Source: Candidatus Doudnabacteria bacterium (GTDB taxonomy: Bacteria; Patescibacteriota; Doudnabacteria; UBA920). From it: 55,353 bases of DNA. Both the position numbers and the translations under genes were made by a program. The notes beneath the pieces are model-generated. The model was given only the letters and a program-made list of their open reading frames with translations. It had not been told where the DNA came from and did not search any database. Every line of letters begins with the position of its first letter. The stretch's first letter is position 1. This document shows, in pieces, positions 17,909 to 42,447 of the stretch. Where the stretch lies: contig JACRDK010000020.1 of the NCBI GenBank assembly GCA_016218585.1, positions 1 to 55,353 on the forward strand, read 5' to 3'.

Positions 17909-18550
17909 TTACTTTAAATAATCCTCCGCATTTAGCCAGCTGGAAAGATCGGCTTTGTTTTGGGTGTAGCCAAGCAAAACTACGCCAGTGCCTTTGTGGA
18001 TTGAAAGGTGAAGATGTTTTCTTTCGCCGTCGGTTTCCGTGGAATAACCTTTGCCTAAAATTCCTAAGTTTTGCCCTGCCACAATGCTATCGCCAACTTT
18101 TAAAGTTATGCTGGCTAGCTTTAAATGGCCGTAGAGCACGGTAACATTTTCCCCGTTAAGAACGCAAGATTGAACCATAACGCCCCCATAACCGGTGGCG
18201 TATTTTTTAAGCAAAAGTTCGCCGTCGCAGGCCGCGGAAATTGCTACGTCGGCATCCTGTTCTTCGACTGTGGTTTCAAAGTCCGTGCCGGTGTGGTAGC
18301 CTTTAAATTTTTCTGGGGAGACCGGAGAGTTTTGTGGAGTTATATAAATGCCAAAAGGTTTTTTGGTTATGCGGCCAAGGCCGTTTGCAATTGGCATGCT
18401 AAGTTTGGCTGTGGTTGCCGGAGCAGGGGATGCGGGAGTATTTGTTGTAGTTGATGCGTTTTGGTTATTACTCTGCACATTTGTTGCCGGAGTTTTTTGG
18501 CACCCAGCAGCCAAACCCACCAAAATAAAAATAAAAATTATTTTTTTCAT
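17909..18550 (-). CDS. M23-family zinc endopeptidase lipoprotein
   Basis: 213 residues. Lipobox GLAAGC near the N-terminus, then a Thr/Pro/Ala linker. The peptidase domain shows HTGTDFE (first zinc ligands His and Asp, HxxxD) and HLHLSIH (HxH), both required in M23. GYGGVMVQS and VGDSIVAGQNLGILGKG are typical lysostaphin-fold strands. Likely cuts peptidoglycan peptide bridges outside the membrane. The minus-strand SD (GGAGGGAG) precedes the ATG. A 42-bp palindrome lies 10 bases upstream of the start and is repeated before the next gene up, a Cas2-fold regulator. Confidence 0.88.
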   Translation of the reverse strand: MKKIIFIFILVGLAAGCQKTPATNVQSNNQNASTTTNTPASPAPATTAKLSMPIANGLGRITKKPFGIYITPQNSPVSPEKFKGYHTGTDFETTVEEQDADVAISAACDGELLLKKYATGYGGVMVQSCVLNGENVTVLYGHLKLASITLKVGDSIVAGQNLGILGKGYSTETDGERKHLHLSIHKGTGVVLLGYTQNKADLSSWLNAEDYLK

Positions 18551-18560
18551 ACTCCCTCCA

Positions 18561-18602
18561 ACTTGTCTAAAATATTCACAAATGTGAGAGTTTTAGACAA
18601 GT
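18561..18602. repeat. 42-bp palindrome, copy 1 (upstream of M23 gene)
   Basis: Outer 12-bp arms (ACTTGTCTAAAA, TTTTAGACAAGT) and a concentric inner TCACA-AA-TGTGA dyad. Identical over all 42 bases to 19298-19339. Copy 1 lies 10 bases upstream of the M23 start codon and 6 bases after the stop of the Cas2-fold gene. Candidate operator; could also form a hairpin in RNA. Confidence 0.9.
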
Positions 18603-18608
18603 TTAATT

Positions 18609-19277
18609 TTAAAGAATGTGATGCAGGTTAAAGTATTTTTTTAAAACTTTTTCATCTTGAATATCCATTCTGCTTATCTCCATCACCGTGACAAATTTAT
18701 CAATCCCGTAATGGTTAGCTATTACCTCCAGTTGTTGTCTTGGATCGTAAGGATAAAACCATAAAGTCCTTTGCAACGAGCAAAAGCCCATTTGTTTAAG
18801 TTTGGTTCGTAGCGCATCTGCACCCTGCCTGTATCCTTTAGTTGGAATGTCCGCAGCCACCTGCCACCATTTGCCATCCCATTTTTTTGGCTTGGAAACT
18901 GATAAAGCCTCAAAGCTTATTTGTTCCATTTTCTTTTGCCCTAAGGAGCTTAAAAATAAGCTAACGCCGTTTTTGTCCCTAGTAAATTTAATTAATCCTG
19001 ACTTTTTTAAATAATAGAAAGCGTGGGCGGTTTTTATCTCTTTCTCCCTCTTGCTTAGTTTTTTACCTTTTAGTTTATATAGCTTATCAAGTGCTACAAA
19101 AATATTTGGCGCTGTTGCTGCTAAAGTGGCAATGCCCGCCGCTGCAATAACAGCCAATATTATTTTACTTGCGTTGCCAATAAGTTCAATTTGTTCTTTA
19201 TTTAAATCAAAAATAGGGTCTTTTGTGGGATCCGCAGTTCGTAAAGTCGTTCCAATTTTGTATTTCGAATACGACAT
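18609..19277 (-). CDS. membrane-anchored PaaX-like regulator with Cas2-fold C-terminal domain
   Basis: 222 residues. One hydrophobic segment near 38-62 (IILAVIAAAGIATLAATA), then a basic winged-helix-like region (about 76-125: AHAFYYLKKSGLIKFTRDKNGVSLFLSSLG), then a Cas2/PaaX-C fold (about 132-205: WDGKWWQVAADIP, RTKLKQMGFCSLQRTLWFYPY, IDKFVTVMEI). In true Cas2 the Asp of the first strand is catalytic; an Asp is present here (AADIP). PaaX proteins are DNA-binding repressors. The gene is bracketed by identical 42-bp palindromes. No CRISPR array or cas1 is present in the window. Confidence 0.8.
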   Translation of the reverse strand: MSYSKYKIGTTLRTADPTKDPIFDLNKEQIELIGNASKIILAVIAAAGIATLAATAPNIFVALDKLYKLKGKKLSKREKEIKTAHAFYYLKKSGLIKFTRDKNGVSLFLSSLGQKKMEQISFEALSVSKPKKWDGKWWQVAADIPTKGYRQGADALRTKLKQMGFCSLQRTLWFYPYDPRQQLEVIANHYGIDKFVTVMEISRMDIQDEKVLKKYFNLHHIL

Positions 19278-19297
19278 ATAATCACCCCAATTTTACC

Positions 19298-19339
19298 ACT
19301 TGTCTAAAATATTCACAAATGTGAGAGTTTTAGACAAGT
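19298..19339. repeat. 42-bp palindrome, copy 2 (upstream of Cas2-fold gene)
   Basis: Exact duplicate of 18561-18602, 737 bases away, starting 21 bases upstream of the start codon at 19277. Flanking bases outside the 42 do not match. Confidence 0.9.
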
Positions 19340-41183: not shown

Positions 41184-41223
41184 TTCATTCACTTCATTCA
41201 CGGCCGTGAATGAAGTGAATGAA
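41184..41223. repeat. perfect 40-bp palindrome
   Basis: Twenty bases on each side of CGG|CCG are fully complementary with no loop. Each arm is built from TTCATTCAC units in direct repeat (ATGAA/TGAATGAA). Could be a regulator site or a cruciform. Confidence 0.9.
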
Positions 41224-41273: not shown

Positions 41274-41335
41274 TATAAAATCATCTACGTTTTTCAAAGT
41301 ATGATTTGAAAAGGTTCGCAGACGATTTTTTATTT
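41274..41335 (+). ncRNA. candidate ~60-nt RNA ending in a long hairpin terminator (ppa leader)
   Basis: Outer arms AATCATCTACG / CGCAGACGATT (9 of 11 paired) and inner TTTTCAAA-GTATGA-TTTGAAAA (8 bp perfect), then GATTTTTTATTTT. The promoter sits directly upstream. It may be an independent small RNA or an attenuator for the pyrophosphatase gene 57 bases further on. Confidence 0.5.
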
Positions 41336-41391
41336 TGTGGCCAAAACCTGCACGCTCAGGCGGTGCCGGGTCCAGCTTAATTAACTGTTTT

Positions 41392-41892
41392 ATGATTTCA
41401 AAAATTCCTTTCGGCACAGCCGACGAATTTAATGTAATAATCGAGGTTCCGCAGGGCGAAGCAAAAAAATACGCTTACGACGCGGAAATAGAAGCGGTTA
41501 AGCTTAGCCGCGTGCTTTATGACGGCTTGGTTTTTCCGTTTAACTATGGTTTTGTAGCGGAAACGGAAAGCGGAGACGGCAGGCATTTGGACGCCTTTAT
41601 TTTAGCAACCCACCCTCTCTCGCGCGGAACCGTAGTTTTATGCCGGGCGATAGGCATGCTAAAAATGAAGGATCGCGGCAAGCAGGATAACAAAATTATC
41701 GCCGTGCCGATTTCAGAAAACCGCATGGAAGGATTAAATGATATTACCGATTGGCCTGAAGAGGAAAAAGAGAAAATTAAAGATTTTTATAAAATCGCCG
41801 CAGCTCAATGGGATAGCACTATTGAACTGCTGGGTTACGAAAATAAAGATGCCGCAAAGAAAGAATTACTGAGAACTTTGGAATATAACTAG
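41392..41892 (+). CDS. ppa: soluble family I inorganic pyrophosphatase
   Basis: 166 residues from the ATG at 41392, the usual family length; upstream in-frame codons are ignored because they enter the terminator-hairpin leader. NVIIEVPQGEAKKYAYD, FPFNYGFVAETESGDGRHLDAFIL (family signature D-x-D region varies: GDGRHLDAF), and ITDWPEEEKEKIKDFY. Hydrolyses cytoplasmic PPi. Convergent with the membrane pyrophosphatase hppA, with one orphan unit between. Confidence 0.9.
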   Translation: MISKIPFGTADEFNVIIEVPQGEAKKYAYDAEIEAVKLSRVLYDGLVFPFNYGFVAETESGDGRHLDAFILATHPLSRGTVVLCRAIGMLKMKDRGKQDNKIIAVPISENRMEGLNDITDWPEEEKEKIKDFYKIAAAQWDSTIELLGYENKDAAKKELLRTLEYN

Positions 41893-41939: not shown

Positions 41940-41983
41940 AACTGGTCAAAATACGACGATTGTTGTATTTTGACCAGTTTTTT
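41940..41983 (+). terminator. ppa terminator
   Basis: Perfect 15-bp stem AACTGGTCAAAATAC / GTATTTTGACCAGTT with T run. The next promoter starts 5 bases later. Confidence 0.9.
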
Positions 41984-42410: not shown

Positions 42411-42447
42411 AAAAAAAGACACCTCTTTTTAAAAGAGGTGTCTTTTT
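42411..42447. terminator. bidirectional terminator before hppA end
   Basis: AAAAAGACACCTCTTTT / AAAAGAGGTGTCTTTTT; serves the minus-strand hppA gene. Confidence 0.85.

Follow-up and report, generated by a model that had tools for sequence, protein, structure and literature searches.

The described systems closest to the locus analyzed here are the REP/RAYT modules (REPtrons), in which a single small gene is flanked by palindromes of its own type and cognate solo palindromes are dispersed (PMC2817692, PMC3733652). We compared them, by comparative sequence analysis of draft genomes, with a unit found in the window, which is the whole 55,353-nucleotide stretch of DNA that was analyzed and represents contig C16 of a 1.19-Mb Patescibacteria genome (Candidatus Doudnabacteria). 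The unit resembles REP/RAYT in that its gene lies between two copies of a palindrome, that cognate palindromes of this family are scattered extragenically in the same genome, although at a low copy number, and that there are several palindrome types per genome with complementary stem changes. It differs in its protein, which combines a winged helix with a Cas2-like (PaaX_M) domain and gives only PaaX_M and weak Cas2 matches, and in its palindromes, which are symmetric and occur in few copies per family (approximately 4–8, far fewer than the tens to hundreds of classical REPs). Pfam and PDB fold searches of the window protein returned no Y1_Tnp or HUH/Tyr transposase domain, and no GTAG or CGTC head is shared beside the palindromes, the sequence outside the stems differing between copies. 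Lacking an HUH/Tyr protein as well as the head sequence, the unit is, as judged from its sequence, outside the REP/RAYT family.

Other known systems share single features with the unit. PaaX has a common winged-helix plus Cas2-like (PaaX_M) core, but its chain comprises 305 residues as against 222 in the window protein, whose PaaX_M match ends at residue 209. Against TIGR02277, the full-length PaaX equivalog, the window protein scores 26.6 bits (cut-off, 264.55), and no C-terminal domain was seen. The window protein and its close homologues, designated as clade A, also differ from PaaX in having an N-terminal membrane helix, in being bracketed by palindromes and in the absence of phenylacetate genes nearby. 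The likeness to Cas2 and VapD lies in the fold of the C-terminal domain and in an invariant Asp at the end of its first strand, whereas the window-type protein is fused to a winged helix and a membrane helix. No cas1-like gene was present among the neighbours examined, nor was a CRISPR-like array detected in repeat scans of the stretches examined. pdif modules and integron cassettes are mobile units in which a small gene lies between short palindromic repeats. Here, in contrast, the palindrome type differs from unit to unit, and a single host recombinase such as XerCD or IntI therefore cannot be the reader. IS200/IS605 elements have hairpin ends and a small transposase with a ferredoxin-like fold; unlike them, the present unit ends on each side in a complete copy of one palindrome, and neither an HUH motif nor a catalytic Tyr domain was recognised. 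In the literature outside subscription journals and preprints, we found no account of palindrome-bearing units with a PaaX-like or Cas2-like protein in Patescibacteria.

The first-pass annotation of the window had proposed a membrane-anchored protein of PaaX/Cas2 fold; the fold was borne out, and the N-terminal helix is probably membrane-spanning (Table 1). The Pfam family matched is PaaX_M, described as "Cas2-like domain", and the top match in a PDB fold search was E. coli PaaX (E = 5.9e-6), with Cas2 structures lower in the list. The domain order of clade A proteins is a membrane helix, a winged helix and a Cas2-like domain. The N-terminal helix of the window protein has a mean Kyte-Doolittle value of 2.15, and the value is at least 1.6 in all 16 clade A members; the AlphaFold model has low confidence in this region. 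Neither a transposase nor a recombinase catalytic motif was found by the Pfam and PDB fold searches, and the modelled combination of a winged helix with a Cas2-like fold fits a DNA-binding function.

Table 1. Positions of the unit, its neighbour and solo palindromes in the window
Feature	Position	Strand	Remarks
M23 peptidase lipoprotein gene	17909..18550	-	Neighbour outside the unit; PF01551, E = 4.8e-11
Palindrome copy 1	18561..18602	.	Unit end downstream of its gene; 10 bp ahead of the M23 gene start
PaaX/Cas2-like gene (222 aa, clade A)	18609..19277	-	PF20803, E = 1.2e-14; AlphaFold model; fold match to PaaX (8a39)
PaaX_M Cas2-like ferredoxin domain	18651..18887	-	Residues 131-209; model beta-alpha-beta-beta-alpha-beta with high pLDDT
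Winged-helix region	18909..19052	-	Residues ~76-123; model H76-92, E96-101, E104-109, H111-123
Hydrophobic N-terminal helical region, probably membrane-spanning	19098..19199	-	Residues ~27-60; Kyte-Doolittle; model helix 27-46
Palindrome copy 2	19298..19339	.	Unit end upstream of its gene; 20 bp ahead of the PaaX/Cas2-like gene start
Solo palindrome, family bracketing the contig C30 unit	41184..41223	.	TTCATTCACTTCATTCACGGCCGTGAATGAAGTGAATGAA
Solo palindrome, family bracketing the contig C8 unit	41942..41982	.	AACTGGTCAAAATACGACGATTGTTGTATTTTGACCAGTT

The two palindromes around the gene are exact 42-bp duplicates with nested dyads, as the first reading of the DNA had it. Each consists of a 12-bp outer dyad (ACTTGTCTAAAA/TTTTAGACAAGT) and a concentric inner core (TCACA-AA-TGTGA), with a 3-nt unpaired internal stretch (TAT/GAG) between them. 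When folded as single-stranded DNA, each copy reaches -10.6 kcal/mol (z -5.4), which none of 200 shuffled sequences equalled. Contig C5 has two further exact copies, one on each side of an unrelated 258-aa ORF with no Pfam match, and variants occur at C5:34477 and C30:54735, giving approximately six sites of this type in the genome. The segment C5:34477-35707 (L009:7478-8709) contains three window-type palindromes, two of which bracket the 258-aa ORF, and is surrounded by GC-richer ORFs and repeated intergenic segments.

The same arrangement recurs throughout the gene family. Almost all named relatives with this gene are Candidatus Doudnabacteria MAGs. Each of the 16 close homologues that carry the membrane helix has a palindrome of approximately 38 bp beside its gene; it lies upstream and, in nearly all cases, downstream as well. 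Most soluble homologues across the phylum also have a palindrome beside the gene. These include soluble paralogues of approximately 175–200 aa (clade B), which are arranged likewise but whose palindromes have a different centre, in most cases CGGCCG or CGATCG. A third group, clade C (approximately 160 aa), is conserved and found in many genomes of the family without palindromes, and thus serves as an internal control. When a palindrome was required on both sides of the gene within 200 bp, with the copies alike, 12 of 16 clade A members, 37 of 57 clade B members and none of the seven clade C members passed. Clades A and B together gave 49 of 73, so that approximately one-third of the scanned members fail this strict test, as compared with a pass rate of 2/576 for control ORFs of at least 150 aa from the window's own genome. 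One of the two passing controls is itself a clade B unit, and the other is a Trp_repressor-family gene. The sequence of the palindrome varies from gene to gene, while the copies flanking any one gene match each other: they agree at approximately 29–30 of 38 positions on average within a unit and at 16–19 between units. Of 380 Patescibacteria genomes, 123 had relatives in a profile search with clade B, with hit numbers running from one to at least nine, some of the matches presumably being clade C. No relatives of the family were found in the viral contigs searched, and a viral origin of the unit was rejected.

Comparison of the two copies within units indicated which parts of the palindrome are constrained. 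The copies agree in the centre (approximately 5 bp per side) and in an outer box approximately 11–17 bp from the centre, and the spacer between them varies while staying self-complementary. A first compensation test gave 49 versus 4 but was biased, because palindromes had been selected, and it was rerun with the second copy located by its centre and left outer box only and with no selection for complementarity. In the rerun, changed spacer positions had a complementary right partner in 77 of 89 cases (a quarter being expected), a count that is partly doubled since each copy of a unit was used as reference.

Palindromes at both gene ends, together with nuclease relatives, would also suit hairpins in the mRNA that stabilize or regulate the gene and are bound or cut by the Cas2-like domain. 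Cas2 and VapD are such nucleases. On the gene strand, G-T and A-C mismatches are equally frequent (44 and 45, respectively), and the lack of a wobble bias makes an RNA stem unlikely. Solo copies between convergent genes and in either orientation relative to genes, and the failure of the palindromes to reach the gathering score of any Rfam family, also speak against RNA hairpins, an account we find scarcely credible. Given that the spacers change yet remain self-complementary and that there is no G·U bias, the constraint appears to act on DNA.

A process at the DNA level that could by itself keep palindromes perfect is template switching during replication (quasi-palindrome correction), with no selection for structure. 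In one pair of solo copies, which share an identical 28-bp core, the outer arms differ completely and yet extend the palindrome by 9 and 7 bp, which suggests that flanking DNA was copied in inverted form or that templates were switched. Nevertheless, template switching leaves the association with a gene family, the matching pairs and the conserved boxes unexplained, and as the sole cause we regard it as very improbable; it may act alongside the mechanism considered next.

The reading we favour, with a probability of roughly 0.58, is that the unit represents an element widespread in Patescibacteria, the protein of which binds and spreads its private palindromes. The element would consist of a single PaaX/Cas2-fold gene between two copies of a private palindrome of approximately 38–42 bp, plus dispersed solo copies. 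The protein most likely binds its palindrome as a dimer, contacting the centre (approximately ±5 bp) and the outer box (approximately 11–17 bp out), and such recognition would leave the spacer free but self-complementary. Acting alone or together with host enzymes of replication and repair, the protein would help the palindrome, and sometimes the entire unit, to be copied or inserted, much as in REP/RAYT. A candidate for the DNA-cutting activity is the invariant Asp of the Cas2-like domain, D143 in the window protein, or else host replication and repair. The architecture of the units, the private matching of their two palindromes, the dispersal of palindromes, their presence and absence between species and the complementarity at the DNA level are visible in the sequences themselves; binding, dimerisation on the site and mobilisation of the unit are inferred. 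An earlier suggestion that the repeats delimit a small mobile unit of approximately 780 bp fits best with the data, with the refinement that palindromes also occur alone.

Dispersal was examined by scanning approximately 858 kb (72%) of the window's own genome, read as stretches. The scan yielded 17 palindromes at the scored quality, approximately one-third of which resemble ordinary terminators, as compared with none in Markov-simulated sequence of equal size. Solo palindromes of several types were found between genes; of 13 such sites, 4 separate convergent genes. In genome G000, one and the same 34-bp palindrome stands at C29:40736 and C27:44679, with unrelated flanks. The type with the centre GCGGCCGC (C5:176622 and C27:25411) has no cognate gene, since the five PaaX_M genes of the genome carry other palindromes or none. 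In the window, an ORF at 41335-41892 (inorganic pyrophosphatase-like by eye) lies between the solo palindromes of two unit families, and a palindrome at 42413-42447 was set aside as terminator-like.

Dispersed cognate sites and a membrane helix in 16 of 16 clade A members and 14 of 34 distant units could alternatively mean that the clade A protein tethers the chromosome to the membrane at its palindromes as a Noc-like organiser. We consider this improbable: soluble clade B units lack the helix yet are built in the same way, the genome has only about six window-type sites, and site positions vary between species.

The neighbourhoods of the units change markedly between genomes. Flanking genes were shared in 3 of 105 pairs of clade A loci versus 51 of 55 for a control gene, with neighbourhood genes called as open reading frames rather than taken from curated annotation. 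All three sharing pairs are at the maf/parB region. One palindrome type lies 3' of a parB-like gene in G000 and another in G020; in G007, G021 and G008, there are few bases from the parB-like stop codon to the next promoter-like sequence. At an intergenic site of contig C30, a unit is present in G000, G003 and G001, solo palindromes of other families are present in G005 and G007, and neither is present in G002 and G006. The protein of G001 at this site did not group with those of G000 and G003 in a tree, with modest support there. The solo sites lack conservation among closely related species. Neither a target-site duplication nor a base-exact empty site was found, the flanks of the presence/absence sites being too diverged for exact junctions. 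Some units are stably inherited, given that G003 and G005 retain a unit at a common location; their palindromes have changed together.

This joint change is also what an ordinary autoregulated PaaX-like repressor would produce, with operators on both sides of its own gene and solo palindromes as its regulon: the copies would match because one protein reads both, and they would change jointly when its specificity shifts. PaaX is a known repressor and the nearest fold, and the upstream palindromes lie approximately 10–80 bp ahead of the start codon. A plain regulator–operator model would likewise explain the Trp_repressor-family gene bracketed in the same genome. Such a repressor accounts for the matching pairs but not for the solo sites between convergent genes, of which there are several, the complementarity of the variable spacer (77/89), which operators do not need, or the changing neighbourhoods of units without conserved neighbours. 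A simple operator also predicts no downstream site, and the solo sites vary between close species. We therefore regard the repressor as an unlikely, albeit serious, alternative.

The Trp_repressor-family gene (L188:9537-10028, contig C27) has a unit-like architecture with an unrelated HTH protein. Its two matching imperfect palindromes are AGTCTATTAC-TCCAGT-GTAATAGACT and ACTCTATTAC-TCCAGT-GTATTAGAGT, and the difference between them is compensated.

The first-pass annotation had also proposed that the protein binds the palindromes and controls the neighbouring M23 peptidoglycan hydrolase. The tie between protein and palindrome stood, in that each gene has its privately matching palindrome, but the role of M23 did not. 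When the flanking genes of clade A units were compared, no other unit shared those of the window or lay beside an M23 gene, and this neighbour is thus not conserved. G006, a close relative, has its M23 and ADA genes near each other on either side of an EamA-like gene (named by eye), with no unit, palindrome or Cas2-fold gene there. Control of the hydrolase by the Cas2-fold protein was accordingly rejected. The supposed link from envelope state to wall cleavage fared no better, the palindrome occurring also at unrelated and convergent intergenic sites. On contig C4 of G006 (L127:1-1800), the EamA-like transporter gene, apparently frameshifted, is found where the window carries the unit.

Returning to the spreading element, we give even odds to the further proposition that it belongs to a new class of mobile or selfish DNA in Patescibacteria: a private hairpin palindrome, with or without its gene, would be recognised and spread by a PaaX/Cas2-fold protein and no known transposase. 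If the units move, Patescibacteria carry a widespread multi-copy mobile element that annotation would mask as "PaaX-like" or "Cas2", and a REP-like system exists in which the palindromes are partnered by a protein other than an HUH transposase. Cas2-fold proteins would then possibly have a role in DNA mobility beyond CRISPR adaptation, in what may be an independent use of the fold. Should they prove to be regulators, the units would be unusual, fast-evolving protein–operator pairs that could be used for reading recognition codes. Since each protein is accompanied by its presumed site, both readings are testable by ordinary DNA-binding assays.

One further solo family, GTTGCACT-spacer-GCTCGGCCGAGC, was found in two species at different loci, namely L130:7249-7290 in G001 and contig C59 of G007 (L271/L265). 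Their spacers are AAT and TAC, and both are complementary.
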